Below are positions 3-17,678 of a stretch of DNA of 36,240 bases, piece by piece. Source of the stretch: Lachnospiraceae bacterium (GTDB taxonomy: Bacteria > Bacillota > Clostridia > Lachnospirales > Lachnospiraceae). Location: positions 1 through 36,240 of the forward strand of contig JAEEZH010000029.1 of NCBI GenBank assembly GCA_016288495.1, written 5' to 3'. The notes under the pieces were generated by a model. It saw only the letters and a program-made list of their open reading frames with translations. It did no database searches and had not been told where the DNA came from. How positions within the stretch are numbered: position 1 is the first letter of the stretch; the number at the start of each line of letters is the position of its first letter. The position numbers and the translations under genes are program-made.

Positions 3-3000
3 CTGGCGGCCGATACGGTCCTTGAAGCGTCAAAGACCTATGTGATCCATCACAATGTGGTCCTGGCTTCCGGCATGGAAAAGAAATGGTCCATCGACAA
101 GATCGAGCAGACACATAATCTCATCTTCAGGAGTCCCATGGATACCGAGGTGGAGGTCAAGTATGCAGAGACTTCCTTCTCCAAGAAGTATGACGGAACA
201 CCCTTTACCCTGACTCCCACCGCAAAGGTATACGCTGTGAGCGAGGACGATGAGAAGAAGGATATTACTCCTTCCGCAGATTCAGGCCTTCTGGTATCCA
301 AGTGGTACCGTCAGGTGGGTCCTGTGGAAGATGAATTGCTGCTTAAGGGCGTTTACGGTTTTGCCCCCGAAGAATATGCCGATCTTTATGCAGGTTTCCT
401 GCGCTATGATCTGGGAGAACTCGCTACCGTATATGAGGAGATCCCGGACGATAAGGTGACCGAGGCAGGCGTATATTATCATGTGACCTGGTTCCTGGAT
501 GTCAGCGGTTCGTATAATCAGAGCTATTCTGCACAGCGCGTTGTCATCGAGTCGACCCAGGCTGTTGTTATGCCTGTTTATGATAACGGCGATACCGAAG
601 CACCCAAGGTGATCGACGAGACAGTCACTGCTTCCGAGAACAGAGTGCTGACAGTCTACAGCGGGCAGACAGTACAGAGCGTGCTGGACCTTATCACCTA
701 CAAGGCATTCGAGACCACTGAGGGCTCTGCCATCGATACATCAAAGCTTCTTCCCGAGGATGCCTTCGGCACGGCCTATGATGTAGATGCAGAATATGCG
801 ACCACCCAGGTTTATCAGCCTGTTTTTGCTATCCAGAAGAGAGTGAGCGTGACCGGTGACGGCAAGGGCCGCTCGGGTTATTACCGCTGGATAGACGCCG
901 ATGAAAACGGCAACGGTTACTACTATGACGAGTTCATCGAGAGCGATGAGATCTACAGAGTGGTATTCACCGGAGATAAGGCTGTATTCCAGTGGCGTGA
1001 TGAAGTTGAGATAAACGGTGAGGAATACTATGGCTGGTTTGAAGTCGGGCGCATCGGCATAAACGGTGCAGGCCCCCGTTATCATGTCCTTACCACCGAG
1101 GAAGTGCGTGATGCCTGGGCTATCACACTGATCCCTGCTGACAGACAGGCCGGTGAGATAGACGTGAGCGCCATCGTGGCAGGTGCGGCCGAGGCAGGCT
1201 TTGCATCAGCTGAGGGTTCATTTGCGGCACCTCTGACCAAGACCTTCAAGTGGAATGGTGGCGCCGATGGTTCAGCTCCCACCGGAGCAGAGCCCATCTA
1301 CGCAAAGCGCGAGGATTATAAGAAGGCAAAGCTCTTCTATTATGATGTGAACACTACCCTGTCTCCCGCGGAGTCAAAGGTTACGGATAAAAAGAATGAA
1401 GTGACCGACATAGAGAGTACCGACGAGCGCTTCGAGTACAACTGGTACAAGATGGATGACGAGGATCGTGTGCTGACACTCCTTCTGGATAAGGCAAGAG
1501 AGCTGAATCCCGATGCCCAGACCCTGGCACTTACAGCTCCCGCAGCTGACGCCGATGCCAAGACCAAGCAGGTATATGAGGAGTGGAAGTCCATCGCCGA
1601 TGCAGCCACCTGGACCAAGGTCAATGATGTGCTGAATGATGACGGCGAAGAGCCCATTAACTCAAATGATTATTGGTATAACGGAGAAGAAGTAGACAAG
1701 GATAAGGCTGTCGCTCCCTATGACGCCGGCGTATACAGGCTGGGAGTCAAGTTCAGACCCGAGACCATGGATGACTTCAGGTATGACGCTCCCGAAGCAT
1801 ATGTATACTATGTAGTAGAGCGTGAGTGGGCAGTGGCAGGTATCGATCCCGCCTCCGGAATAAAGGTTTATTCGGACGGCAGCCTCACTGCCAAGGACGT
1901 ACTGGAGGATCTCCAGACTGTGGATCCCACCAGGACCGATTCTTATATCTCCGCAGTACGTTTCTATGCATCCGATGCAAACGGAAACCGCGGTGAAGAG
2001 CTGAAGCAGCCCACCAGGGTAAATGTCCTGAGAGACCTGCTCCTGGCTGATGATAATGCAACCAAAGCCTTTGAGATAGATAAGGTGGCTGCGGACAATT
2101 CACTTAAACCCCTGGCCCTTTCCGATAAGCTTTCCGAGAAGGATCAGGCAGGCAATAAGAACAAATACAACCTGAACTTAAAGCGCATCCCTGATTACAG
2201 AGAGTTTGATGAAGGATCCGTAAGCGATTATGCTTTCTGGACCGAGGAGGAGAAGCTCACTTATCCCAAGCTGTCAAACTACAACTTCGGACGTGCTCTG
2301 GGTAAGCACGGCGAGGATCTGTCACAGGTTAAATACGCCAACGGCGTGGCTGCAGTAAATGTGGCTTATTCGGACATGGTTCCCGTTTCCGTCAAGATCG
2401 ACGATAAGGCAGTAGGCCTTGAGAAGGTTTATGACGGCAAGGCCATCAACCTCGGCGAGTTCATGGACGAATTCGTTCATGTGGTCAGAGATGATAACGG
2501 TGAGGAGCTCAAGGATGCGAAGTCCAGACTTCACGTAACACTTCAGAGGGAGAAGGAATACAATTCCAAGGATCCCTTCATCCTTGCCACCGATCTGGAT
2601 AACTGGGATGATAATGGACATACTGACGAGACCACCTACACAGAGCCTGTATATCTTATGGATAGTGCTACCCGTCTGGTAAACGGTGCGGTTCACGGTG
2701 GTGATTATACGATCAGCATCACCCTGGAGGCTGATGAGACCTATAAGAGGGCTGAGGCGGATCATGAGAATCCTCCGATTTATTCCGTGGAAAGAAGAGA
2801 GCTGGAGCTCATCCCCACCTTCAAAAAGGAAAATGAACTCATCCTTGAGAACAGCTATATGGATACAAAGGCCACCGTGCCCGGTATCCCTGCCGGTATT
2901 GAGGCAGACAATGACAATATAGCCAAATATGTGGTAGACAAGGTTACCCTGGGCAAGGTACAGGCAGGCGGCAGCGCCGATGCCGACACAGGCATCGTGG

Positions 3001-6000
3001 ACGCCGATCTGGCTAATTCTTCAAAGATCATCAAGGCTTATGAATTCGCAGCCCAGAAGATGGATGAAGTGACAAAGGATGAGAAGAGCTGGAAGAATAT
3101 TAAATTCGGTGCAGCTCCTTATCTGGAGAGCAAGGAATCATATCTGGTAAGGATCGATGTACAGGGTGCCAACAAGGACGGCATTGGCGGACAGTGGTAT
3201 GCAAGAGAGGATGAATTCCTGACAGCATACAACGGCGGCACCACGGCTGACAAGGGCGTGCCCACATATGTATCCTTCGGTACCGACTATTGCATCACCG
3301 ATAAGGTTGATCCTTCTCGTCAGACCTTTGTACCCGTGAACTCTCCTGCGGTAGTGAACCCTTACACCTTTGCAGGTGATGCTGAAGTTATGATCAGCGA
3401 TACTATCGTGGGCGTAAAGGACGAGACCACAGGTATGGTGGCTTATACTCATACCATCAAGCCTCTGGAAGGCATCCCCGTTGATTACAGGGGAACCAAG
3501 AGTCCTCTCGGCGATTCCAAGGGCAAGAATGTATTCCGTTTCAGACTTCATGCTCCCGAGGAGCTGAGCTTTGCCGGCGATAAGATCCTGTCCGGTCTTG
3601 ATTTTGAAGCCAGATATGCATATCGCGGCGGCATCGAGGCTGTGGGCGGATGGTTAGGCTCAGGGCGATTCGGCGACTTTATTATCGCCAAGTCTTACGC
3701 AGCGAAGAAGGCACCTATCATGATAGGCGGCTGGAATTCCGGCGCCGTTGACGGACATTATGATGACAGGACACCTAATATCGCAGTATCCTTCCTGTCC
3801 AGCGGTCTTCCTGCAGATGTGGTTCCCAACTACACCTTCCAGGTAGACTGGGGCAAGTATAAAGAGGATTATGTGGTGGATCTGACCCAGGCAAGCAATG
3901 AAGATGACCTGACAAAGGCAGTGGCACCCAAGTCCCTTAAGTTCAACAAGCTCAACAAGAAGATGGCTGTAGGCGATACCCAGCAGCTGGATGTCACCAT
4001 CAAGAAAAAGCAGAAGGCCGATATCATCCTTCTTGGTTACAGGATCGTGAAGGGTGACCAGTACATCTCCATTACCGATAAGGATGCCCAGCGTCTTGTG
4101 TCTATTGTGAACGGAACTAATGCGAATGTTAAAAAGACTACCCTTCCTGCCGGTATCATCACTGCCCTTGCCACCGACGGCGGCAAGAATGCAAAGGTGG
4201 ATATCGAAGTCTTTGCGGCCTATTATGATGAATACGGCGTGAAGAAGCCCATCGTGGATGCAAAGGGTAAGGAAGCCTGCGTGGCAAAGGCATCCATCAC
4301 CGTGAGCGAGGTGGCCAAGCCCACCATCAGCAAGGTGATCACATCACCCACTGCCACAGTGATCCAGTATAAGAGACCTGAAAACGGTATGCGCCGTGAG
4401 ATTTATCTCCTTAAGGGTGACAAGATCAACGAAGCTGCATTTGAAGAGAAGATAGCAGCTGTAAAGAACGGTGATTATTACGGTACCTTTGAGGAAGTGG
4501 GATTCTTCATGGCTGACGAGGGAGATACGGCCGATGCTCCTAGGGCAAAGGCTTCCGATCCCAAGGTAAGGTCGTGCACCCTGTGGGGACTGGATCCCTG
4601 CGAGACCTATTCCGTATATGTCCGCAACGTATCCGGTATGAGGACTGTAAACGGCGGCGATGTGGTAACCGATTCCCATGCCGGTTCCGTGAAGAGCTTC
4701 AAGACAGGCAAGGCTGTCATCGGCGGGATCAAGATATCCATGAATGCTCCTGCTATCAAGTATGACTGGACAAATAAGGAAACCTATGTTCCTTATGCAG
4801 ATGACAACGGTAAGCTGGGTGATCATCCTTTCTATGACTATTCAGTGAAGCTTTCCGATAAGACCGTGATGGTAACCTCAGTCGGCAAGTATTATGACTT
4901 CCTGCAGAACAAGGCTGCAGATCAGGGTGATTATTTCTATGGTCCCCTTAAGCTCACTGCAGAGCTCAAGAAGATCTATGAGGCCCCGAAGGTTGTCTAT
5001 GTGGTTACGGATGCTCCTTGGTTTAATAGCAGCAAAGGCGGCGGAAGCTATTTCTATGAAGCCGGAAAGAACACCTTTAAGAAGGATGTACCTGAGGGAA
5101 CAAAGAATTATACCATGGTCAAGTTCAAGGATGGCAGCGTGGCTTATTATCACAAGACCAATATAGCCACCATAGCCAAGAACGGCAAGCTTTCCCTGAA
5201 GGGTAAGGGCCATGCATGGGTACTCGCCATCGATACGGTTTCCGGAGCTACCGATGGCACACAGCTGTTCATCGACGCTACTCCTACAGCCATGAAGGCA
5301 AAGGCCGGCAAGGTCAATGCAGGAAGCAGCATAATGGTATCAGAGCTGCTGCAGTATACGGAAGGCAGGACGAAGATCGCGGATTATGAGAAGAAGTATA
5401 CTCACTTTAATCCCATCGAGGAGAGCGCCGAGACCGGCCAGTTCTACGATCTGTCCTTCGAGCCCGTGGAGACCTCCGATTTCGTCATCGAGCAGGTACC
5501 TGCGGTTGTAGAGGGCGTGAACTGTCCTGTATATAATGACAAGAGACATGACATAAAGATCACGGCAGTGAATCCCAAGGCGAAGCTTAAGCTGACGATA
5601 TCCGATAACTCAGCGCCCACGCCCATATCCCAGGATATCACCATAACCAGCGGCCCCGCTCCCAAGGCAGAGCCTGTCAAGGGCGTAAAGGTGCTGGCTG
5701 TGGCAGACGACAGGGCGACCTTCGGCTTCTCCTATTCGGGAGATCTGAAAGCACCGGATTCCGATACTACCCTGCGTATGATCGTAAAGGATTCAAGTGG
5801 CAAGGTATATACCGATGAGATAGTACCGGCTGATTCCTTTGAGCGTCATACCCCTTATTCCTGGGTGGGTGACATCTGTCTCAACGATAAGAAGTATGAC
5901 GGCTTTGACGAGGATACCGAAGAGTGGTTTGCCAATACCGTCAGAGCGGATAAGAAGGGCTACTATTATGCGGTCAGCTATGTACCCAACTCCTTTGTGA

Positions 6001-9000
6001 TAGGAGAGGATGATATATACATCCCCGGTGAGAGAGATCATCTCACCAGGCTGTCCCAGTATACGGTATCCTTTATCGTACAGCATGGCAGTGAAGCTTC
6101 CAAGCCTGTTACCAAGAAGTTTAAGACCACTGATATACCCGCTGCATACTACGGACTTCTCGCAGGAACGGACAAGATGCGTCCTTACGGTGTGAACGGA
6201 CACGGAGCCGAGATCAGGCTTACCACCGGAGTGGGTCAGGAGAATGATGCTACTGATTATCCTGTTCTTGGCGCCAGGACCCTGCGCACAGGTAATGATT
6301 ACACCCTTTGCCTGCCTCTTGACGAAGAGGAGGATCTGGAAAATGTCTCCGCAAGACTTCGCAAGACAGAGAAGCTTAAGTGGGTGAGCACAAACAAGCA
6401 GGTGGCTACGGTCAAGACCAAGCCCGGTACCTTTGAGGCCCTGCTTTCCACAAAGAGCCGCGGTACCACCCAGGTTTATGTGGTATCCTCCGTTACCAAG
6501 AGGGTAATAGCTGCCTGGGATGTGAATGTGGCAGCAGTTGGAGATGCGGGAGCATACTTCGGCGATAACGAGCCTTATGAGAGAACGGCTGATTTCTTTG
6601 TATCTGTTCTGGATGAGGATCCTTCAAAGGATGACAGAGTCAGCGCTTCCGAGATCCTGGGTGTAGGCCTTGACAGTCCGTTTACCGAGCCTGATAACGG
6701 TGAGACCCGCTGGTACAGCTTCACTGCACCTGCTTTTGGCTGGTATACTCTCTGGTATAGCGGCGGCGAAAGCGGCGTAGTTAAGAACTTTACGAATATC
6801 GTTATGGAGGCAGGAGAGATCAGATACTTCTCCATTACAGGCCAGGGTGGTTATGGATTATTTAGTGTAACCGGCGGTATGGCCACCGAGATCAAGGTGG
6901 GAACCGAAGCCGGCGGCTCATTTACCGCTGTAGGCCAAGGAGATCTGGTATACTTCATAGCTCCCGACGACGGCCTGTATGAGATCACTTATCAGTACAA
7001 GGACGGCAGGATCGTCAAGGAGTACAGAAGTGATGCCACATCGGATATCGGTGAAGGCAGCAAGAATATCGGTTATGTGAATCTGGCAAAGGATCAGAGG
7101 ATGGTGATCTACATTCCTGAGGGAGTAAAGGCTGTTAAGGTAGCACCTTTCCGCTGGACCAACCTTGAGGATCAGGGCACCTTCACCCTGAAGGAGTCCA
7201 AGGAGATGCAGTGGCTCAGACTTACTGCCAATGAAGATAACCGTTACAAGCTGAGATTCGATGTGACCAGCGAGGATGAGGCAGCTAATGTTCAGATCGT
7301 AGCCTTCTGTGAATCCGATAAGACGGCACTTGACAAGGTGGCAGGTCTGCTCAACGGAATGGCAGGAGATGAGGAAGCTGTCATAGGTGGCAAACCGTTT
7401 GGCAATGAGACCAGTGCGATGATAACAGGTGGCCTTGGTGAGGTAGAGATCGCTCTTCCTGATGAGATAGAGCCCAGCCCGTCCTTCCCTCTGGTTAAGG
7501 ATGCCAAATATGATGATGAAGATCTGACCTCACATATTTATGTGGGTATCCAGTATACATCACCCGATGAGGTTAAAAAGCCCATCAACCTTAAGGCTTC
7601 CGTCATTAAGGATAAGCTGGATACAGAGACTCTCAAGGCTAAGACTACAGGGGAGGCTTCAGGCACTCTGAAGGCCACCAGGTATACGCCTTCCGTATAT
7701 GCATTCACACCTGCAGCCACAGGCGTTTATGTGCTTGATTTTGCTACGGGTGACAATGATGAGAACGCACCTGAAGGCGTAGCTCTGGGTCTGTTCAGCG
7801 CGATAGGTCATGATTATCCCGGGCTGACTGATGAACTGCTTGATTATGAATGGATCAAGGTGGCCGGAAAGAAGGATTATCAGATCGATGGTCTGGAGCT
7901 CACCGGCGGAGAGACATATTACTTCTTCTTCTGTTCAGCTATGATCGCGGCGGACGGTGCTCTGGATGAGGACAAGACCAAGGAGATAACGGCTACTCTT
8001 TCCATTAAGGAAAGACAGATCCCTGAGATCGGTATCACTCCTCTTCCCGGCAATACAGTTGCCATGGCAGTTGCAGGAAAGAGCGAGTACAGATACTTCA
8101 GAGCTCCCGAGACCAATGTATATACCTTCAGCATGGTAAGGAGCGAGAAGGAGGATGCCAAGAATCTGGGACAGGGCGAAGTAAACTTCAGACGCAACTC
8201 AGTGGAAGGCACGCCTATTGACGCAGAAATTGAGGATTATATAGCCGCACCTCGTGATCCTGCGGAGGAGATAGTTACTTCTTCTGCTCCTATCAGCCTG
8301 AGAGAGGGCGAGACTGTATACCTTAAGATCGATTCTCTTGAAAGAGCTGATTCGACCAATGAAGAGACCAATGATACCTACAACAGGACCATCCGTGTGG
8401 AGAAGAGAGCTCTTACGGAGCTGCCCGCTACCATCACTCTGAATGCTAAAGAGAAGAAGTTCTTTGTCTTCAACTCCACGGGCAAGGATAAGTACTTATT
8501 CCTCTTTACCAGGACCGACGGCGTGGAAGAGGGTACTAACGTCAGATGCTCGAATGATGGAAAGGATAATCCTCTCTCGAATAAAGGGGATCTTCCCAAC
8601 GGTGTGAGTCTGACCATCGAGCCTAAGAGTGCGAATGAGCATGGTCTTGAGATTGGCAGCCTTGACCTTGACGCAGAAGACAGACTTTTGTTCTCCTTCG
8701 AGAATCCGAGTGATAAGGAAGCCGAGACCATTAAGGTTACGGTGATCAAGGCAGAGCCTACAGACTTTACGACAGCCAAGCAGACCAAGAATCTGAATAC
8801 CACAAATGAGACTATGGGAGCATGGTTCAGGTTTAGACCTACCACCGCAGGCTTATACAAGATCACCTTTACTTCCAATTCCGATAAGGCGTTTACCGTA
8901 GACAGGTATCATGAGGATTCCGTAAACGGTTATCCCAAGGATCTGGAAGACGGTGTATGGGAAGGAACCTATGATGCAGAGACAAAGTCTTCATTTGACA

Positions 9001-11657
9001 GGATCATCTATACCATGGCAGAGCCGGATCAGGCAGATTACTTCTTGGTAAAGACCGATCTGGAGGGCGAAGAGACTGCAGCCATTACGGCTACCGCAGA
9101 GTTGATCCCTGCCGAGGCACTGAAGGTGGGCGGCGTATATACCGCTTCAAAGGATAAGCCTTTCCTGCTGCTTTCATGGACCGGTGAGGAAGATAATACC
9201 TACACCTTCAGATTCACCAATGATCCTGATACGGCTGCTCTTGGGGCTGTGGGATCCTATGATGGCAAGTATGAGAATGCGAAACATATAGCTGTTAATG
9301 GACCTTCAGGCGAGAAGAAGATCTATGAATTCAGCGTTACCACTCCCAGCGCAAAGGTCAACAGGATATTCTATGTACCTGTAAACGGCTATACCGATGA
9401 TACTCCTGTCAAGGTGAAGTGTGAGGAGATCTACAAGCCTCAGAAGACCATCATGAAGGTGCCCGGAACCACCGAGGTGAAGATCGCCCAGGGTGCAAGC
9501 GCTACCCTGACCTATGAGCTCAGTGCGGAGGAAGAGGATTACTACTCAGTAATGATCACTCCCAGTGACGCCAAGGAGACACATACGGTCACAGCGGCTC
9601 CCAATTCAATCCTGAACGGAGGCTGGAACGGAGAAGGCGTATACCGCACCGGCTTCAGCAAGTGGAACGCAGGCAAGAAGTCCATCAACATCGTAAACGG
9701 TGAAGAGGGCGAAGTGACCTACTCCGTAGTTGTAACAAAGCGTGTGATCACACCTTTGACAGACGGCGCTAAGGTGACTGTGGCAAAGAACACCCAGCAG
9801 TGGTTCAGCTATCAGACAACCGCAACCAATATTTATACTCTTGAACTTAAGGATTCTACGGATACCGATGTCTTCAGAGTAAAGGATTACGACAGCAAGG
9901 AAACGGCATCGGCTTATGGTGTCGGCAATGCAGTTACCGGTGGTCTTTATGACGTTTTCGCTGGCTTTGAAAAGGGCCGGGTGAAGTATTTCGTCGTAGA
10001 TTCCGGCGTGAACGATGAGGGCAAAGTGATCGATCTGTCACTGACCTTTACCGTAAAGAGTTATCCTACCGAGGCTCTGGCTGACGGAAAAGAGTATACC
10101 GTGACAAAGGGAGAGAACAAGATGCTGACCTGGACCGTTGACAAGGATGATGTATATGTACTCACCTTTACTGATACGGTAAACAATGCATATGTTAATG
10201 GCTGGTATAACAAGGTGCCTTCCGGCGGTGGTGATCTGAATATCAGTGGACCTGTTGCGGATGACGGCAAGTATGTTTATGAAGCAGCTCCTGTAGCCCT
10301 TAAGGCAGGAGATCAGGTCTATGTGGTTCTGGCTGGCATTGAGGATGACGATCATAAGGTGACTGCCGGCATCAGGTCCTACTGGAAGGATGCATCTGAG
10401 ATCAAAGCAGGCGTACAGTTTGCTGTCAAGAAGATGACTGATGAGGAGAGCGGATCGGTATTCCGCCTGTTCAAGTATCAGGCAACCGCAGCAGGCGTAT
10501 ATGACCTTAAGTTCTCAGGTGAAAAGGGTGCGGCAGTTCTGGCAGATGACGGCTTCAAGGCTGAGCTCGAGCCTACAGAGCAGTCTAAGTTTGAAAAGCC
10601 TTCCGCATATGCTCTTGAGCCTGATGATGACGAAGTGGCCGCAGAGGATAAATATAATGTATACACCTTTGAAGATGTATATCTTAACGCAGGGGATGTG
10701 ATCTACTTCCGTGCAACGGCACCGGATGCATCAGCTGAGGATCTCAAGTTTACCCTGACCTCTGAAGCTCCCGAATATACGGCTACCCTTGATTCTCTCA
10801 TCGGCAAGCCTCTGGCAGAAGTGACTGTAGATGATATTGACATGGTATACAGCTGGACCAATACCACCGGCAATGATGTGGTTGTCAGAATAGACGCCGA
10901 GGAACCTGAGGAATCTGAGGAATCTGCCATAACGGTAGTTGATTCATTTGGAAAGCCTCTGGGTGATGGTATTGCCTGGGCAGAGGGTGAGACCTCTTAT
11001 TCCTTCCCTCTCAAGGCCGGACAGACCGCATTCCTGGCTCCTACTGAGGATGGTATCGTGGTAAACAATATCCATGTGGAGGCACCTCTTGCCGTAGGCA
11101 GGAATCCGGTGACCATACCTTACGGATTCGGATCCAAGGTATATTACATCAGAAATTCCGAGGGCAAGGCAGGAGCAGGCTTCTTTGCTGCTACTACCGC
11201 TGCGGATGCTATCTATGGAATATCCTTGATCAATGATGAAAACTGGGTATGGGATGAGGGAAGAGATGATGAAGTATTTGTAGGTTCTGACACTGAGTTC
11301 ATCCGTATGGAGGTTCATAAGGATGATGAGCTTCGCGTATCAGATTATGTGAACGTGGAGAAGCAGACCGGATCCCTTATCTCCGACACAGCTGAGAACA
11401 AGGCTAAGTATCTGTACGGACATGGAGATAATTACATCCGTGTAGACAATACCCAGTATGCAAATGCCCAGTATCAGCTGCAGTACATCGCTGCTGACGG
11501 ATCCCGCAAATCTCTGGACAAGGGAATCGTGATCCATGTTGATGGAACTGCTACACCGGATAGTAATGGCGTGAGACTGGGTGAATCCATCATCTTCACC
11601 ATACCTAACGGTGGCAAAGCATATCAGACCAGCCTGACTGTAAAGAAGGTTAACTGA
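3..11657 (+). CDS. Giant secreted/surface multi-domain protein, 5'-truncated by window edge (MBG-like, FN3-like, Big2-like domains and many beta-sandwich repeats)
   Basis: Frame stays open from base 3 through the listed GTG at 42 to TGA at 11655-11657. MBG-like segments (KKYDGTPFTLTP; LEKVYDGKAINLGEF), FN3-like segment (KPTISKVITSPTATVIQYKRPENG...YSVYVRNVSG), Big2-like segment (KLKWVSTNKQVATVKTKPGTFEALLSTKSRGTTQVYVVS). No LPxTG or SLH motif seen in the visible part. Confidence 0.9.
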   Translation: MAADTVLEASKTYVIHHNVVLASGMEKKWSIDKIEQTHNLIFRSPMDTEVEVKYAETSFSKKYDGTPFTLTPTAKVYAVSEDDEKKDITPSADSGLLVSKWYRQVGPVEDELLLKGVYGFAPEEYADLYAGFLRYDLGELATVYEEIPDDKVTEAGVYYHVTWFLDVSGSYNQSYSAQRVVIESTQAVVMPVYDNGDTEAPKVIDETVTASENRVLTVYSGQTVQSVLDLITYKAFETTEGSAIDTSKLLPEDAFGTAYDVDAEYATTQVYQPVFAIQKRVSVTGDGKGRSGYYRWIDADENGNGYYYDEFIESDEIYRVVFTGDKAVFQWRDEVEINGEEYYGWFEVGRIGINGAGPRYHVLTTEEVRDAWAITLIPADRQAGEIDVSAIVAGAAEAGFASAEGSFAAPLTKTFKWNGGADGSAPTGAEPIYAKREDYKKAKLFYYDVNTTLSPAESKVTDKKNEVTDIESTDERFEYNWYKMDDEDRVLTLLLDKARELNPDAQTLALTAPAADADAKTKQVYEEWKSIADAATWTKVNDVLNDDGEEPINSNDYWYNGEEVDKDKAVAPYDAGVYRLGVKFRPETMDDFRYDAPEAYVYYVVEREWAVAGIDPASGIKVYSDGSLTAKDVLEDLQTVDPTRTDSYISAVRFYASDANGNRGEELKQPTRVNVLRDLLLADDNATKAFEIDKVAADNSLKPLALSDKLSEKDQAGNKNKYNLNLKRIPDYREFDEGSVSDYAFWTEEEKLTYPKLSNYNFGRALGKHGEDLSQVKYANGVAAVNVAYSDMVPVSVKIDDKAVGLEKVYDGKAINLGEFMDEFVHVVRDDNGEELKDAKSRLHVTLQREKEYNSKDPFILATDLDNWDDNGHTDETTYTEPVYLMDSATRLVNGAVHGGDYTISITLEADETYKRAEADHENPPIYSVERRELELIPTFKKENELILENSYMDTKATVPGIPAGIEADNDNIAKYVVDKVTLGKVQAGGSADADTGIVDADLANSSKIIKAYEFAAQKMDEVTKDEKSWKNIKFGAAPYLESKESYLVRIDVQGANKDGIGGQWYAREDEFLTAYNGGTTADKGVPTYVSFGTDYCITDKVDPSRQTFVPVNSPAVVNPYTFAGDAEVMISDTIVGVKDETTGMVAYTHTIKPLEGIPVDYRGTKSPLGDSKGKNVFRFRLHAPEELSFAGDKILSGLDFEARYAYRGGIEAVGGWLGSGRFGDFIIAKSYAAKKAPIMIGGWNSGAVDGHYDDRTPNIAVSFLSSGLPADVVPNYTFQVDWGKYKEDYVVDLTQASNEDDLTKAVAPKSLKFNKLNKKMAVGDTQQLDVTIKKKQKADIILLGYRIVKGDQYISITDKDAQRLVSIVNGTNANVKKTTLPAGIITALATDGGKNAKVDIEVFAAYYDEYGVKKPIVDAKGKEACVAKASITVSEVAKPTISKVITSPTATVIQYKRPENGMRREIYLLKGDKINEAAFEEKIAAVKNGDYYGTFEEVGFFMADEGDTADAPRAKASDPKVRSCTLWGLDPCETYSVYVRNVSGMRTVNGGDVVTDSHAGSVKSFKTGKAVIGGIKISMNAPAIKYDWTNKETYVPYADDNGKLGDHPFYDYSVKLSDKTVMVTSVGKYYDFLQNKAADQGDYFYGPLKLTAELKKIYEAPKVVYVVTDAPWFNSSKGGGSYFYEAGKNTFKKDVPEGTKNYTMVKFKDGSVAYYHKTNIATIAKNGKLSLKGKGHAWVLAIDTVSGATDGTQLFIDATPTAMKAKAGKVNAGSSIMVSELLQYTEGRTKIADYEKKYTHFNPIEESAETGQFYDLSFEPVETSDFVIEQVPAVVEGVNCPVYNDKRHDIKITAVNPKAKLKLTISDNSAPTPISQDITITSGPAPKAEPVKGVKVLAVADDRATFGFSYSGDLKAPDSDTTLRMIVKDSSGKVYTDEIVPADSFERHTPYSWVGDICLNDKKYDGFDEDTEEWFANTVRADKKGYYYAVSYVPNSFVIGEDDIYIPGERDHLTRLSQYTVSFIVQHGSEASKPVTKKFKTTDIPAAYYGLLAGTDKMRPYGVNGHGAEIRLTTGVGQENDATDYPVLGARTLRTGNDYTLCLPLDEEEDLENVSARLRKTEKLKWVSTNKQVATVKTKPGTFEALLSTKSRGTTQVYVVSSVTKRVIAAWDVNVAAVGDAGAYFGDNEPYERTADFFVSVLDEDPSKDDRVSASEILGVGLDSPFTEPDNGETRWYSFTAPAFGWYTLWYSGGESGVVKNFTNIVMEAGEIRYFSITGQGGYGLFSVTGGMATEIKVGTEAGGSFTAVGQGDLVYFIAPDDGLYEITYQYKDGRIVKEYRSDATSDIGEGSKNIGYVNLAKDQRMVIYIPEGVKAVKVAPFRWTNLEDQGTFTLKESKEMQWLRLTANEDNRYKLRFDVTSEDEAANVQIVAFCESDKTALDKVAGLLNGMAGDEEAVIGGKPFGNETSAMITGGLGEVEIALPDEIEPSPSFPLVKDAKYDDEDLTSHIYVGIQYTSPDEVKKPINLKASVIKDKLDTETLKAKTTGEASGTLKATRYTPSVYAFTPAATGVYVLDFATGDNDENAPEGVALGLFSAIGHDYPGLTDELLDYEWIKVAGKKDYQIDGLELTGGETYYFFFCSAMIAADGALDEDKTKEITATLSIKERQIPEIGITPLPGNTVAMAVAGKSEYRYFRAPETNVYTFSMVRSEKEDAKNLGQGEVNFRRNSVEGTPIDAEIEDYIAAPRDPAEEIVTSSAPISLREGETVYLKIDSLERADSTNEETNDTYNRTIRVEKRALTELPATITLNAKEKKFFVFNSTGKDKYLFLFTRTDGVEEGTNVRCSNDGKDNPLSNKGDLPNGVSLTIEPKSANEHGLEIGSLDLDAEDRLLFSFENPSDKEAETIKVTVIKAEPTDFTTAKQTKNLNTTNETMGAWFRFRPTTAGLYKITFTSNSDKAFTVDRYHEDSVNGYPKDLEDGVWEGTYDAETKSSFDRIIYTMAEPDQADYFLVKTDLEGEETAAITATAELIPAEALKVGGVYTASKDKPFLLLSWTGEEDNTYTFRFTNDPDTAALGAVGSYDGKYENAKHIAVNGPSGEKKIYEFSVTTPSAKVNRIFYVPVNGYTDDTPVKVKCEEIYKPQKTIMKVPGTTEVKIAQGASATLTYELSAEEEDYYSVMITPSDAKETHTVTAAPNSILNGGWNGEGVYRTGFSKWNAGKKSINIVNGEEGEVTYSVVVTKRVITPLTDGAKVTVAKNTQQWFSYQTTATNIYTLELKDSTDTDVFRVKDYDSKETASAYGVGNAVTGGLYDVFAGFEKGRVKYFVVDSGVNDEGKVIDLSLTFTVKSYPTEALADGKEYTVTKGENKMLTWTVDKDDVYVLTFTDTVNNAYVNGWYNKVPSGGGDLNISGPVADDGKYVYEAAPVALKAGDQVYVVLAGIEDDDHKVTAGIRSYWKDASEIKAGVQFAVKKMTDEESGSVFRLFKYQATAAGVYDLKFSGEKGAAVLADDGFKAELEPTEQSKFEKPSAYALEPDDDEVAAEDKYNVYTFEDVYLNAGDVIYFRATAPDASAEDLKFTLTSEAPEYTATLDSLIGKPLAEVTVDDIDMVYSWTNTTGNDVVVRIDAEEPEESEESAITVVDSFGKPLGDGIAWAEGETSYSFPLKAGQTAFLAPTEDGIVVNNIHVEAPLAVGRNPVTIPYGFGSKVYYIRNSEGKAGAGFFAATTAADAIYGISLINDENWVWDEGRDDEVFVGSDTEFIRMEVHKDDELRVSDYVNVEKQTGSLISDTAENKAKYLYGHGDNYIRVDNTQYANAQYQLQYIAADGSRKSLDKGIVIHVDGTATPDSNGVRLGESIIFTIPNGGKAYQTSLTVKKVN
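6690..11360 (+). repeat. Tandem diverged protein modules inside the giant ORF (PPC-like/beta-sandwich-like, about 12-14 copies)
   Basis: Recurring pattern W/Y-x-x-F-x(4-6)-G-x-Y-x-L-x-F ... L-x-A-G-D-x-x-Y-F: RWYSFTAPAFGWYTLWYSGG, SVYAFTPAATGVYVLDFATG, YRYFRAPETNVYTFSMVRS, AWFRFRPTTAGLYKITFTSN, QWFSYQTTATNIYTLELKDS, MLTWTVDKDDVYVLTFTDT, RLFKYQATAAGVYDLKFSGE. Confidence 0.7.
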
Positions 11658-11697: not shown

Positions 11698-11731
11698 GCC
11701 CGGCCCCCTTTTGGGGGCCGGGCCTTTTTTT
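11698..11731 (+). terminator. Rho-independent terminator after the giant ORF
   Basis: GCCCGGCCCCC-TTTT-GGGGGCCGGGC perfect 11-bp stem followed by C and T7. Confidence 0.95.
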
Positions 11732-11830
11732 GAAAATAAGGCTTTTCAACCGTCTTAAGTTTTGGTAAAATAATATCAAGTGGGCTGTTTTGACGGCCGG
11801 GATATAAAAGTGTGTAAGGAGGATGTAGTT

Positions 11831-12235
11831 ATGTTTTTAAGTAGATTATCTGAAACGGGTAAGAAGCATTTCCTTGATCTGTGTGTACATGCTTCATGGG
11901 CAGACGGTGAGTTCGCAGAGTCCGAGATATCCCTGCTCAGCGCTTTCTGTCGTGAGATGGGTATTCCCGAGGAGATCCCGGATCCCGATCAGGAGCTGGA
12001 TGCGCTCATGGCCCAGGTCGCACCTGATGTGACCGAGGTAGAGAAAAATATCATGCTCTTCGAGCTTTACGGCCTGCTTAAGATAGACGGAAGCTTTGAC
12101 GATGCCGAGAGGCGCATACTTGAAAAGATAGCCGACGGCATAGGCGCTAAGCCCGGCGCCCTGGACCGTATCATCAGCGTGGACAGGATATATTCGGTTG
12201 CTGTTTCGGAATTATATAAGGCCGTGGTAGGCTGA
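11831..12235 (+). CDS. TerB-like / tellurite-resistance-TerB-fold small helical protein
   Basis: ATG at 11831 preceded by AAGGAGG; HASWADGEFAESEISLLSAFCREMGI...LYGLLKIDGSFDDAERRILEKIADGIG, the paired acidic-loop pattern of TerB-like proteins. The ORF-track start at 11780 is upstream of the best RBS. Confidence 0.65.
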   Translation: MFLSRLSETGKKHFLDLCVHASWADGEFAESEISLLSAFCREMGIPEEIPDPDQELDALMAQVAPDVTEVEKNIMLFELYGLLKIDGSFDDAERRILEKIADGIGAKPGALDRIISVDRIYSVAVSELYKAVVG

Positions 12236-12348: not shown

Positions 12349-15300
12349 ATGATCACATACAACAACACCAAGACACTGCCCGATCTGATCGAAAGGATCA
12401 GAAAAGAGTTCGAAAACCGGGTCTTTTACAGATTCGAAAGAGACGATACGATCTTTGAAAAGGGCTACGGCACATACGCCGGAGACGTATTTGCCGTAGC
12501 CGGTTATATAAGGGAACAGAATACCAAATACGGACATGATACCCATGCTGCACTTCTGGGCAGGACCAGTTATGAATATCTGACCGTCCTCATGGGGGTT
12601 CCCTGTGCCGGCGGCGTCGCCATTCCCATGGATATACAGATGGGGATAGACGCGCTGGTGGATTCTCTTAAAAGGGCCGACACCGATATACTTTTCATCG
12701 ATATCGAGTTCGGTTCATATCTGGATATTCTCAAGGAAAGATGTCCCTTCATCAAACGATATATAGCCATGCAGTCTGTCAAGAATATGCGCTGTGTTCC
12801 CATGATACACAGGGTATACAGAGGCACGCAGATAGACTGGAGGATAAAGAGCGACAAGTGCGCTCTCATCATCTATACCTCCGGTACCACAGGGGTGAGC
12901 AAGGGGGTCATGCTTTCCCACGGTAATCTCATAGATAACCTGTTCAGTTCCGACGATCAGAGGGAGGTATGTCTCAATGTGCTTCCCATTCATCATATAT
13001 TCTGTATTTCGGGTGACCTTTTGATGGTGCTCCGTTATGGTTCCACCCTGTGCCAGTGTGAGGATACCTCAAAGCTCATATATTATCTGCAGCTTTTTGA
13101 GCCCACGGTGATGAGGGCGGTGCCCATGATGGCAAAGGTACTGATCAACCGCCTCAAGATCATGCAGCAGCAGGAGCCGGATGAGGATTTCTCGGTCATC
13201 AAGGCGAAGGTGTTCGGCGGCAGGCTTAACCGCATAGTCAGCGGAGGAGGCTATCTGTCTCCGGATCTGTCCGAGCAGCTTCTCAAGGCCGGTATCAACG
13301 TGGCCCAGGGCTACGGTATGTCCGAGTGCTCCCCCAAGATCACTTCCCCTGACTATGAGCGCAGGGATAAGCTGTCCTCCGTGGGACATCCTGTCACCGG
13401 AGCCATCATCCGTATCGTGGACGGCGAGATCCAGATAAAGAGTCCCTCCGTCATGCTGGGCTATTATAATGAGCCGGAGCTGACTGCCGAGGCCATCACT
13501 GAGGATGGTTTTTTGCGGACCGGAGATACCGGTTATCTGGACGACGAGGACTTCCTTTTCCTGAACGGACGTATCAAGAACCTTATCATTTTGAGCAACG
13601 GTGAAAATGTTTCCCCGGAGTATATAGAGAATAAATTCGACCCCGAGAGGCTCATAGCCGATATCATGGTTTACGGGGACGGGGATAAGCTGGTGGCCCA
13701 GGTGTATCCGAATTACGAATACGCCCAGCTCAGCGGCATAGTGGATATACAGGCAGAGCTGGACCGCATCATGGCCGAGCACAATGAAGAGCTGACCACC
13801 TACCAGAAGATCACCAAGATGATCATCAGGAACAAGCCTTTTGCAAAGACCGCTTCCAAAAAGATCATAAGGTCAAAGGTGGAAGAAGAGCTCATGGCTC
13901 AGGAGCAGCTTAAGAAGACCCTGAAGGCACCTTCCACCGATCTGCAGAAGCTTCTCTTTAACCTGCTGGCAAGGCAGCTGGGTACCATGGAATTCTCCGT
14001 GGACGATGATTTTTACGAGATAGGTCTGGATTCCATGGGTTCCACCATGTTCCTGTCCGACATAGCCGAGAATATAAATAAAAAGATCTCACTGTCAGAG
14101 CTCATGGATCATCCTTCCATCATAGCCCTGGAGGAGTTCTTTGAAAAGCAGGATGAGAAGCCTTCGGTGGATCTGTCTGTCAGGGAGGTATATCCTCTCA
14201 CTTCCATGCAGATGTACTTTGCCTATGTCATCCCCGGCAATACCACCGGCAATCTGCCCTTCTCCTTCAGGATGAGCAAGGATATAGATTTTGACAGGCT
14301 TAAAAAGGCAGTATATAAGGTGCTGGATGCCCATCCCACCCTTAAGGCCCTGGTAAAGCCCACGGAGACAGGGTACTTCGGGGTGTACAGGATGGACGAC
14401 AGGGTGGTGGACATACCTTTGCAGCAGATAAAGGAAGAGAATGCCCAGGAAGAGATCCAGAACAGCATAGTGGGCTTTAATTTCAGGAATGACCCTTCTC
14501 TGGTACATATCAAGTTCCTGGAAAGCGAGTCCCATAAATATATCTTCTTTGATGTGGCGCATTTCATGGGGGATGGCATGACCATGAACATCATCATGGA
14601 GGATCTCAAAAAGGCCTACGACGATGAGCCTTTTGAGGGTGAAAAGGATTATACAGGTTTCGAATACATGCTGGAGACCTGTGCCGGCATGCAGGACGGC
14701 ACCAGGGCAAAGGATGTGGCCTATGTGGATTCCCTGATGAAGGGCTTGAGGATGAACCGGAGCATCCTGAATACCGAGGCTCCCGGCGCCGACCTTACAA
14801 AGGGAGACAATGCGGTGATCAAGCGCCGCTTAGAGTCCCTGGGAAGAAAGGACGTCATAAACTACGGCAGGGAGCACGGCGTATCCGAAAATGCATATTT
14901 TATCACTGCATTTAATTATATGGTGAGCCTGTTTTCCGGTGAGAACGATGTGTTCAGCACCTCCATTCACAGCGGCAGGACGGACAGCCGTTACAGCCGG
15001 ATAGCCTGTGCCCTTTTCCTGACATATTTTTCCAGATATACGGTGACGCCCCATGAGACCATGGAACAGCTCATACGAAAGACGGGTAAGCAGATACTGC
15101 AGACCATGAAGACGAAGACTCCCATGTCCAGGGCGTCAGAGATGTTCTTCCAGTTCCAGGGTGACATCCTGGACGTGCAGATGCCGGGAGAGGGCACCGA
15201 GAGGGTACATGTGCAGCTGGATTCCCTGCCCTTCCATCTGATGGTCATGTATGATGACAGGGGATATTATGTGGAACTGCGTTACTGGAAGAACCGTTTC

Positions 15301-15942
15301 GCTCCCGAGGTAATGGAGATCTTCCTTCTCTGCTTTGAGTCCATTCTTAAGGCCATGACCGAGGAGACCTCCGTCAGGATGCTGAAATATCATCTGCCCA
15401 AGGAGGTATATCCCAGAGGCCTGTATGTGAATGCGGCAGATCTGCACGAGGCTGCAGGGCGTACCATCATCTCAGGGGTGGAGCCCGATGAGCCCATACG
15501 CCTTTATGTGCTGGATGAAAGCTATCACAAAAAGCCTTACGGAGCCTGGGGATCTTTGTATATCATGAACTATGAGCCGGATGAATTCGTGGAGTCACAG
15601 CAGTATCCCTACGGACCCGGCATGGTATACAATACGGGACTCATAGCCAGAGTCCTTCCGGATAATACGGTGGACTTTCTGCACATGCATGGCAGAAGGG
15701 TTCTGTTTGAAGGTCACAAGGGAAGGAAATATACGGACCTGGCCGCTGTGGAGGAAGCGCTTTTATCCTTCGATCAGATAAACAGCGCAAAGGCCTTTAT
15801 GGCATACGATCCTGAAAACAGCATATTTGTGTTACGGGCAGAGGTGGACGCAGAAGAGGGCTTTGACGCAGAGGCTCTTAAAGAAGAGATGAAGGAGAAG
15901 TATGGGGAGGATCTGACTCCCGCGTACATAGACGTTTTATGA
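12349..15942 (+). CDS. NRPS-like protein: acyl/aminoacyl adenylation domain - PCP - condensation domain - vestigial adenylation C-terminal segment
   Basis: A-domain motifs IIYTSGTTGVSKGVMLSHGNL, QGYGMSECSP, GYYNEPELTAEAITEDGFLRTGDTGYLD, GRIKNLIILSNGENVSPEYIE; carrier motif DDDFYEIGLDSMGSTMFLSDI; C-domain motif AHFMGDGMT (HHxxxDG variant). Confidence 0.9.
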   Translation: MITYNNTKTLPDLIERIRKEFENRVFYRFERDDTIFEKGYGTYAGDVFAVAGYIREQNTKYGHDTHAALLGRTSYEYLTVLMGVPCAGGVAIPMDIQMGIDALVDSLKRADTDILFIDIEFGSYLDILKERCPFIKRYIAMQSVKNMRCVPMIHRVYRGTQIDWRIKSDKCALIIYTSGTTGVSKGVMLSHGNLIDNLFSSDDQREVCLNVLPIHHIFCISGDLLMVLRYGSTLCQCEDTSKLIYYLQLFEPTVMRAVPMMAKVLINRLKIMQQQEPDEDFSVIKAKVFGGRLNRIVSGGGYLSPDLSEQLLKAGINVAQGYGMSECSPKITSPDYERRDKLSSVGHPVTGAIIRIVDGEIQIKSPSVMLGYYNEPELTAEAITEDGFLRTGDTGYLDDEDFLFLNGRIKNLIILSNGENVSPEYIENKFDPERLIADIMVYGDGDKLVAQVYPNYEYAQLSGIVDIQAELDRIMAEHNEELTTYQKITKMIIRNKPFAKTASKKIIRSKVEEELMAQEQLKKTLKAPSTDLQKLLFNLLARQLGTMEFSVDDDFYEIGLDSMGSTMFLSDIAENINKKISLSELMDHPSIIALEEFFEKQDEKPSVDLSVREVYPLTSMQMYFAYVIPGNTTGNLPFSFRMSKDIDFDRLKKAVYKVLDAHPTLKALVKPTETGYFGVYRMDDRVVDIPLQQIKEENAQEEIQNSIVGFNFRNDPSLVHIKFLESESHKYIFFDVAHFMGDGMTMNIIMEDLKKAYDDEPFEGEKDYTGFEYMLETCAGMQDGTRAKDVAYVDSLMKGLRMNRSILNTEAPGADLTKGDNAVIKRRLESLGRKDVINYGREHGVSENAYFITAFNYMVSLFSGENDVFSTSIHSGRTDSRYSRIACALFLTYFSRYTVTPHETMEQLIRKTGKQILQTMKTKTPMSRASEMFFQFQGDILDVQMPGEGTERVHVQLDSLPFHLMVMYDDRGYYVELRYWKNRFAPEVMEIFLLCFESILKAMTEETSVRMLKYHLPKEVYPRGLYVNAADLHEAAGRTIISGVEPDEPIRLYVLDESYHKKPYGAWGSLYIMNYEPDEFVESQQYPYGPGMVYNTGLIARVLPDNTVDFLHMHGRRVLFEGHKGRKYTDLAAVEEALLSFDQINSAKAFMAYDPENSIFVLRAEVDAEEGFDAEALKEEMKEKYGEDLTPAYIDVL

Positions 15943-17441
15943 AGCTTAACATAGAGACCACATCCGGTGTAGTCAGCGGTGTGGCAGGTGACAGCGAAGG
16001 CAGATATTTAAAGTGGCTCGGCATTCCCTATGCCGAGCCTCCCATCGGGGAGCTGCGCTTTAAAAGAGCCAGACCCTTTGAAAAAAGGGAAGGTATCATA
16101 AGGTGTGATTCCCATAAGGCATCTCCCGTGCAGATGTCGGGAGGCAGGTTCGGGGCATTGATGAACGTCGGACCCAATCAGAGCGAGGACTGCCTGACGC
16201 TCAATGTCTGGTCTTTTAAGGGTGCCATAAAGGCACCTGTCTTTGTATATATTTTCGGTGGCTCGCACCATGCGGGAGACAGCGCTTCAAAGGATCTTCA
16301 GCTGGATGCTTTCTCCCATGAGGGGATAGTGGCCGTATCGTTTAATTATCGTCTGGGAGTTCTGGGCTTTTATGACTTTTCCATGCTGGATCCTTCTTTT
16401 GAATCCAACTGTGGTATTTCGGACATGATCATGGCCCTTAAGTGGGTGCATGAGAATATAGCGGTTTTCGGCGGAGATCCGGAGCGGGTGACCCTCTGCG
16501 GTGAGTCCGCGGGAGGCACGGCAGTGGCAGCCCTTATGGCTTCTCCCCGGGCAAGGGGGTATTTTCACAGAGCCATACTGATGAGTGCCGTTCTGTCCAA
16601 TATCACCACGGACAGGCTGCAGGCCATATACAGGGAAAAGTATTTTGCCACCCTGGGACTTGATCAGGGCGAAGTGAAAAAGCTTAGGGAGATGGATGTA
16701 TCGGAGCTCAAAAAGGGCTGCGAGGTCATTTTTACCGGCAATGACACCGAATATCCGGGGATAGTCACCCCGGGGCCTGTCATAGATGATCTCATACCCC
16801 ATAAGCCCCTTACCGCTTTTGAGAAGGGGGAGATGGGGGATATAGCATGCATCTTCGGCACCTGCGGGGATGAGGGAGCGCTGTTCTGGTTTTTGAGGCT
16901 GTGCTGCATGAGTTGGGAGGATGTGGAAGGCATGCTCCGGGTCACGGGATATGCCCACAAGAGAAGGGATTTTCACAGGATCTACGATGCTTTGGGAGAA
17001 AAAAAGGCTGTCAGGGCCGTAAACCGGGACAGGCTGTTCTGGGCGGATACCATGAAGATGGCCATAGCCCAGAGCAAGCACAATGATCACACTTATGTGT
17101 ACCGTTTTGAATATGAGACTCCCCTGTCCCGGATCCTCAGGTGGGGCAGCACCCATACCATGGATATATGTCCGGCCCTGGGTACAAAGGAGGGACCCTA
17201 TTCCATCATGTACCGCCGGGATATGAAAAGCAGGCGCTATAAGAAGATGTCCTCAGCCTTCCATGGAGCTTTCCTTGATTTCATCAGGACGGGACGTCCT
17301 TCGGCGGGGGAGGAGAAGTGGGAGAATTTCAGGCCAGCCATACAGAGCGTCATGCACTTCGGGAACAGGATATACCAGACGTTTGAACGGCCGGAGCCCG
17401 AGATATTTGAGCTGTTTTCGGATATGGAGCTGTATGTATAG
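15939..17441 (+). CDS. Carboxylesterase type B (alpha/beta hydrolase)
   Basis: GIPYAEPPIGELRFKRA, SEDCLTLNVW, nucleophile elbow LCGESAGGTAV, oxyanion region YIFGGSHHAGDS. Start codon overlaps upstream stop (ATGA 15939-15942). Confidence 0.92.
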   Translation: MKLNIETTSGVVSGVAGDSEGRYLKWLGIPYAEPPIGELRFKRARPFEKREGIIRCDSHKASPVQMSGGRFGALMNVGPNQSEDCLTLNVWSFKGAIKAPVFVYIFGGSHHAGDSASKDLQLDAFSHEGIVAVSFNYRLGVLGFYDFSMLDPSFESNCGISDMIMALKWVHENIAVFGGDPERVTLCGESAGGTAVAALMASPRARGYFHRAILMSAVLSNITTDRLQAIYREKYFATLGLDQGEVKKLREMDVSELKKGCEVIFTGNDTEYPGIVTPGPVIDDLIPHKPLTAFEKGEMGDIACIFGTCGDEGALFWFLRLCCMSWEDVEGMLRVTGYAHKRRDFHRIYDALGEKKAVRAVNRDRLFWADTMKMAIAQSKHNDHTYVYRFEYETPLSRILRWGSTHTMDICPALGTKEGPYSIMYRRDMKSRRYKKMSSAFHGAFLDFIRTGRPSAGEEKWENFRPAIQSVMHFGNRIYQTFERPEPEIFELFSDMELYV

Positions 17442-17541: not shown

Positions 17542-17678
17542 AAAAAGATCCTTCGGCTAAAGCCTCAGGATGACCCCGGACATTGTCATTCTGAGGAACG
17601 CAGTGACGACGCATATCGCACCATGAAATGGTGTGATGCCGCCCCGGCGAGGGGTTGCGTAGCAACAGGTAGAATCTT
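17542..17678 (+). repeat. Modular intergenic repeat, cluster R1 (right arm followed by long form)
   Basis: AAAAAGATCCTTCGGCTAAAGCCTCAGGATGAC, then TGTCATTCTGAGGAACGCAGTGACGACGCATATCGCACCATGAAATGGTGTGATGCCGCCCCGGCGAGGGGTTGCGTAGCAACAGGTAGAATCTT; closely matches R4. Confidence 0.9.

Follow-up and report, generated by a model that had tools for sequence, protein, structure and literature searches.

A gene of a Lachnospiraceae bacterium, read within a window of 36,240 nucleotides (the whole stretch of DNA analyzed), encodes a 1,197-aa protein that is probably a one-polypeptide synthetase of fatty-acyl amides, or possibly esters, with an adenylation (A), a carrier (PCP) and a condensation (C) domain in the order A-PCP-C-dA, where dA denotes a remnant of an amino-acid A domain. 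The enzyme would use a soluble acceptor, and the esterase encoded directly downstream would serve as an accessory. A broader and more tentative proposal, to which we give somewhat less than even weight, is that it represents a family of single-chain fatty-acyl amide synthetases of rumen and gut Clostridia that combine a loading module of fatty-acid-amide (FAA) type with an ordinary NRPS C-A unit whose A domain has decayed to a non-catalytic platform at the acceptor site. Host receptors respond to the lipids that gut Clostridia produce from their FAA clusters; if this proposal holds, the family would have evolved, independently, a second way of making lipid amides (or esters), which may be active in the host.

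Domain architecture and distribution of the synthetase

The features of the locus to which we refer below are as follows.

11698..11723, + strand: strong terminator-like hairpin, 11 G-C pairs and then a run of T
11743..11771, + strand: promoter-like site, TTTTCA-17-TAAAAT with TG before the -10 (consensus scan, weak)
11780..12235, + strand: TerB-like small gene, first in the probable transcription unit (Pfam TerB, weak, 27 bits)
12349..13908, + strand: A domain of fatty-acyl/FAA type, aa 1-520 (Pfam, conserved motifs, sister to FAA A proteins)
13939..14148, + strand: carrier (PCP) domain, aa ~531-600 (Pfam PP-binding; invariant G559, D561 and S562)
14182..15405, + strand: Condensation (C) domain, aa 612-1019 (Pfam; own clade apart from FAA C domains)
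15493..15939, + strand: dA, amino-acid A-domain remnant comprising the core end and lid, aa ~1049-1197 (phmmer, profile and fold)
15939..17441, + strand: type-B carboxylesterase, 500 aa (COesterase, 289 bits; triad S190, E312, H406)

The synthetase ORF (12349..15942, + strand, among the ORFs of the window) matched the Pfam models AMP-binding (residues 39-373, 171 bits), AMP-binding_C_3 (411-514), PP-binding (536-597) and Condensation (612-1019, 101 bits). Its A domain carries intact YTSGTTGVSKG, QGYGMSE, TGD and GRIKNLIILSNGEN motifs together with the catalytic lysine, K505, and these motif columns vary little or not at all across the synthetase family, which also holds for the catalytic residues of the PCP and C domains. 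The phosphopantetheine serine of GLDSMGS, Ser562, is encoded by codon 14032-14034. The C-domain motif, AHFMGDG, lies at 14557-14577 and contains the catalytic histidine H738, which is invariant in the family along with D742 and G743; the first, non-catalytic His of HHxxxDG is replaced by Ala or Ser in the family. A sequence-only reading of this DNA had singled out the A-domain sequence LPIHHIFCISGDLLMVLRYGSTL, the intact carrier serine and the second His and DG of the C-domain motif, all of which we recovered, but the A-PCP-C architecture that it proposed was incomplete in that it missed the C-terminal ~150 aa of dA. As judged from its sequence, the protein has the architecture A-PCP-C-dA. The A, PCP and C domains, with their catalytic motifs intact, are canonical NRPS features, whereas a complete C-A-PCP extension module is absent from the protein, with dA lacking a P-loop and lysine and no second PCP being present. 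A structural model of the full-length protein (pLDDT 81) found its best fold match in dimodular LgrA, over A-PCP-C-A.

Relatives were collected by scanning named genomes and, separately, 397 genomes from the bacterial family of the window, with duplicates removed. These scans yielded 27 distinct Clostridia sequences that span the A domain to dA (counting the window; some are cut by contig ends) and one further member, L016, that is partial and fused, carrying a second acyl-ligase domain at its C-terminus. In another member, L063, the synthetase has an extra C-terminal SCP2 lipid-binding domain and a GH3 gene adjoins it. Hosts comprise Lachnospiraceae and Clostridium isolates (L006 and L008). 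The full-length synthetase was present in 15 of the 397 genomes (~4%, its own genome included), and order- and class-level sampling added few further members. Most of the genomes sampled are metagenome assemblies, in which contig ends hide some neighbours, and the genome of the window is itself 82% complete with 6% contamination. Since there are 27 distinct family sequences and dN/dS is low in every domain (0.06-0.13, window versus L015), the synthetase is not a chance ORF. A search of the openly licensed literature found no product or pathway name for an A-PCP-C-dA protein, and the family is apparently undescribed and widespread in Clostridia.

The A and C domains have different relatives

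The best NCBIfam model for the A domain was long-chain-fatty-acid-CoA ligase, with other matches to NCBIfam MenE and, in the PDB, to 4-coumarate-CoA ligase. In the A tree, the A domains of the family formed one clade that lay away from FadD, Aas, EntE, CaiC and amino-acid A domains and was sister to, rather than inside, the stand-alone FAA A proteins (SH-aLRT 96 in a quick tree and 93/94, a moderate value, in a careful one). Stand-alone FAA A proteins were also the next-best scorers, at an identity to the family A domain of only 35-41%. All 20 of the stand-alone-A loci examined were clusters that also encode a free-standing C protein (~465 aa) and an ACP (~75 aa), and the C protein of L073, the only one tested, matched PDB 12KH (E = 3.5e-98), the structure of the FAA enzyme OaaC (PMC13142362). 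At locus L014, a 62% relative directly adjoins a complete FAA set of C, A, ACP and, further along, hydrolase. Sequence and tree favour a fatty acyl group over an amino acid as the A-domain substrate, and the fatty-acyl/aryl-ligase-like domain of the sequence-only reading can be narrowed to a sister of the FAA fatty-acid A proteins.

The same reading had called for a C-domain phylogeny. In a C tree of family, FAA and NRPS C domains, those of the family formed one clade that grouped with the NRPS C domains (SH-aLRT 99), apart from the FAA C proteins, and a tree in which family and FAA C domains were constrained together was rejected (AU p = 0.001). The motifs differ as well, being (A/S)HxxGDG in the family (with Ala or Val for the first Gly in three members), (D/N/H)HxxxD(A/S) in FAA C proteins and HHxxxDG in ordinary C domains. 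A simple fusion of an FAA cluster was rejected, the C domain falling outside the FAA clade, and because of this placement the acceptor chemistry of FAA enzymes is not transferable to the synthetase. Taken together, the A tree, the C tree and the motifs therefore indicate that the synthetase is a mosaic, in which an FAA-like part for loading is joined to a C-A extension part of the ordinary kind with a decayed A domain. In its mode of action it plausibly resembles an FAA synthetase, yet it stands outside that family.

The C-terminal region derives from an amino-acid A domain

With phmmer, the dA region (~1049-1191) matched the amino-acid A domains of TycB (E = 5.5e-6) and ObiF1 over their C-terminal part, and outside the family a profile built from 23 relatives matched almost only amino-acid NRPS A domains. 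The AlphaFold model of dA (pLDDT 93) had the PheA domain of GrsA (1amu) as its top fold match, with an E-value of 5e-11 and a TM-score of only 0.44, a low value that we read in the model as two sub-parts rotated relative to each other. These phmmer, profile and fold matches led us to reject a thioesterase or an unrelated domain as the identity of dA. The P-loop, core motifs A1-A5 and the A10 lysine are absent from dA, and a carrier domain after dA was found in no family member. dA is under purifying selection, with a dN/dS of 0.126 (window versus L015) compared to 0.06-0.08 in the other synthetase domains. By these criteria dA is a truncated amino-acid A domain that is conserved without its catalytic residues; it probably stabilises the C domain or shapes its acceptor side.

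The carboxylesterase and other hydrolases in the neighbourhood

The start of the carboxylesterase overlaps the synthetase stop (ATGA at 15939-15942), as the sequence-only reading had noted, and the same 4-base overlap occurs in L015, with a 7-bp gap in L017. Its triad is intact and aligns with that of pNB esterase (1qe3/1c7j), and its dN/dS is 0.12. A TerB-like gene lies upstream of the synthetase both in the window and in L015. Since the terminator-like hairpin at 11698-11723 and the promoter-like site at 11743-11771 (both consensus matches only) lie ahead of this region, the TerB-like gene, the synthetase and the esterase are suggested to form one three-gene unit, which the hairpin separates from a giant upstream ORF. 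That ORF (window 3-11657) has an open 5' end, encodes at least 3,884 aa and had no Pfam match.

The pairing with the esterase is limited to one part of the family: a carboxylesterase adjoins the synthetase in only four loci (the window, L015, L017 and L004), and no close homologue was detected in most family genomes. The sequence-only reading had asked for a check of the pair across genomes; an obligate synthetase-esterase pair was rejected on these grounds, and a looser association with several alpha/beta hydrolase families was supported. Other hydrolases that adjoin family genes belong to Abhydrolase_3 (L060, L061 and L063), Abhydrolase_6 (L002) and PF00756 (L058). Counting neighbour ORFs picked by length rather than by a gene caller, alpha/beta hydrolases made up 9 of the 49 immediate neighbours of family genes, as did MarR regulators, and no alpha/beta hydrolase family was listed with at least two members among 119 more distant genes. 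Fisher's test for hydrolase adjacency gave p = 0.00007-0.0009 for an assumed distal count of 1-3, a count only bounded from the listed families, and the test ignores shared ancestry, concerns a category picked after the loci were seen and includes neighbours that are not phylogenetically independent.

In Lachnospiraceae, an alpha/beta-hydrolase gene also adjoins FAA-type clusters in 19 of 20 loci (L071-L090), and in L066; the main text of PMC13142362 makes no mention of a hydrolase or esterase, and the link is apparently undiscussed there. Because the carboxylesterase pair is confined to four loci and other hydrolases lie beside family members and 19 of 20 FAA clusters, the hydrolase probably acts as an interchangeable accessory for fatty-acid supply or product turnover rather than a release domain.

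Proposed mechanism and alternatives

In the mechanism that we favour, the A domain would use ATP to convert a fatty acid to acyl-AMP and then place the acyl chain on the phosphopantetheine of Ser562, from which the C domain (His738) would pass it to a small molecule free in solution, with an amine or amino acid as the likeliest acceptor. Condensation itself would free the product, so a thioesterase or second carrier would be dispensable; none of the members has a carrier domain after dA, so an acceptor carrier in cis is absent. dA would be what is left of a former C-A extension module, its catalysis lost, retained to support the C domain structurally or on its acceptor side, and the coupled esterase might release fatty acids for loading or cleave the product or acyl esters. 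The lipid-related fusions and neighbours in relatives (SCP2 and GH3 in L063, the acyl-ligase domain in L016) count for this reading. Carrier activation is plausible because an Sfp-like PPTase is encoded on contig C218 of the same genome. The sequence-only reading had correctly found no PPTase near the synthetase, but its partner is not wholly obscure given the C218 gene; the minimal NRPS-like pathway it proposed is supported by the domain content and the kinship of the A domain to FAA A proteins.

The synthetase could instead serve only to load a lipopeptide synthetase that is split between proteins, its acyl chain passing to an aminoacyl group on another NRPS or carrier protein in trans, given that its C domain belongs with ordinary NRPS C domains, which take acceptors bound to a carrier, and that other NRPS fragments occur in the genome (A-PCP-C-A on C225, and fragments on C175 and C148). 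However, most family loci contain no NRPS or carrier gene, with MarR regulators and hydrolases recurring there, and a C domain normally precedes A-PCP, whereas here the A domain is degraded and a PCP follows in no member; we regard this arrangement as unlikely. The NCBIfam MenE and 4-coumarate-CoA ligase matches would be expected if the A domain activated an aryl or short-chain acid (coumarate- or succinylbenzoate-like) and the product were an aromatic amide, but this is improbable given that the best NCBIfam model is a long-chain-fatty-acid-CoA ligase and that the A tree places the family with FAA A proteins and away from EntE.

Two further alternatives concern the esterase. Some C-domain relatives make esters, and with an alcohol acceptor the product could be an ester or thioester-derived lipid that the coupled carboxylesterase hydrolyses or transesterifies. 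The gene overlap in the window and L015, the intact esterase triad and the further hydrolase families linked in relatives are consistent with such a product. Nevertheless, most family members have no adjacent carboxylesterase, and the closest relatives of the A domain to have been characterised work in the synthesis of amides (PMC13142362), which leaves little probability for this alternative. The esterase might also be an ordinary detoxifying or catabolic enzyme outside the pathway, its place in the operon being a coincidence within a single lineage, as its restriction to four loci and the presence of 6-9 unlinked homologues in some family genomes (G373, G067 and G135) would allow. The 4-base overlap kept in L015, the 7-bp gap in L017, the low dN/dS of the esterase and the recurrence of other alpha/beta hydrolases beside family genes and FAA clusters argue against chance, and we consider this somewhat unlikely.

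Comparison with known systems

An FAA NRPS-like pathway of gut Clostridia (OaaA/OaaACP/OaaC) was reportedly described by Chang et al. in 2021. Like that pathway (PMC13142362), the proposed single-chain amide synthetase has an A domain of fatty-acyl type, which falls in a sister clade, a carrier and a C domain, lacks a thioesterase, occurs in gut Clostridia and often has an adjacent alpha/beta-hydrolase gene; in L014 both systems are encoded next to each other. It differs in joining in one chain the A, ACP and C components that are free-standing there, in drawing its C domain, with its distinct motif, from a separate lineage, and in its extra degenerate A domain. Because the published survey of C_FAA proteins kept only those of 300-520 aa (PMC13142362), it left out fused proteins by their length, and the fused synthetase in ~4% of the sampled genomes of the window's bacterial family, and in Clostridium, would add producers invisible to a length-filtered C survey.

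LgrA (A-PCP-C-A-PCP) shares the domain order, with dA collinear with its second A domain and a C domain that is kin to those of NRPSs, but in the synthetase the second A domain is ~150 aa without an active site, there is no second carrier and the first A domain is of fatty-acyl type. C-starter domains of lipopeptide NRPSs likewise use a fatty acyl donor, as the synthetase is predicted to do; the donor here, however, would sit on an upstream carrier in cis rather than being acyl-CoA, and there is no downstream aminoacyl-carrier acceptor. The window esterase resembles pNB esterase (PDB 1QE3) in fold, length and Ser-Glu-His triad and differs in being encoded in the synthetase operon. The synthetase would offer a one-protein system for studying a C domain with a soluble acceptor, and dA an example of an A domain that has lost catalysis but is retained as a scaffold.

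Several other features of the genome were observed. The intergenic repeat TGTCATTCTGAGGAACGCAGTGACGA at window 17584-17609 has 49 genome copies at up to 2 mismatches, compared to none for a reversed control. Contig C63 carries a stand-alone acyl-AMP-ligase-like gene and a carrier protein (L067, 6750-8650) adjoining ORFs that, judged by eye, resemble an oligopeptide ABC transporter; these A and ACP genes were rejected as FAA members, falling outside the FAA clade in the A tree. On contig C175, a 532-aa protein (L068, 2528-4123) fuses a STAS domain to a condensation domain and is followed by an A/C-containing protein, a gene pair that is also present in a genome of the same genus (G052, locus L100).
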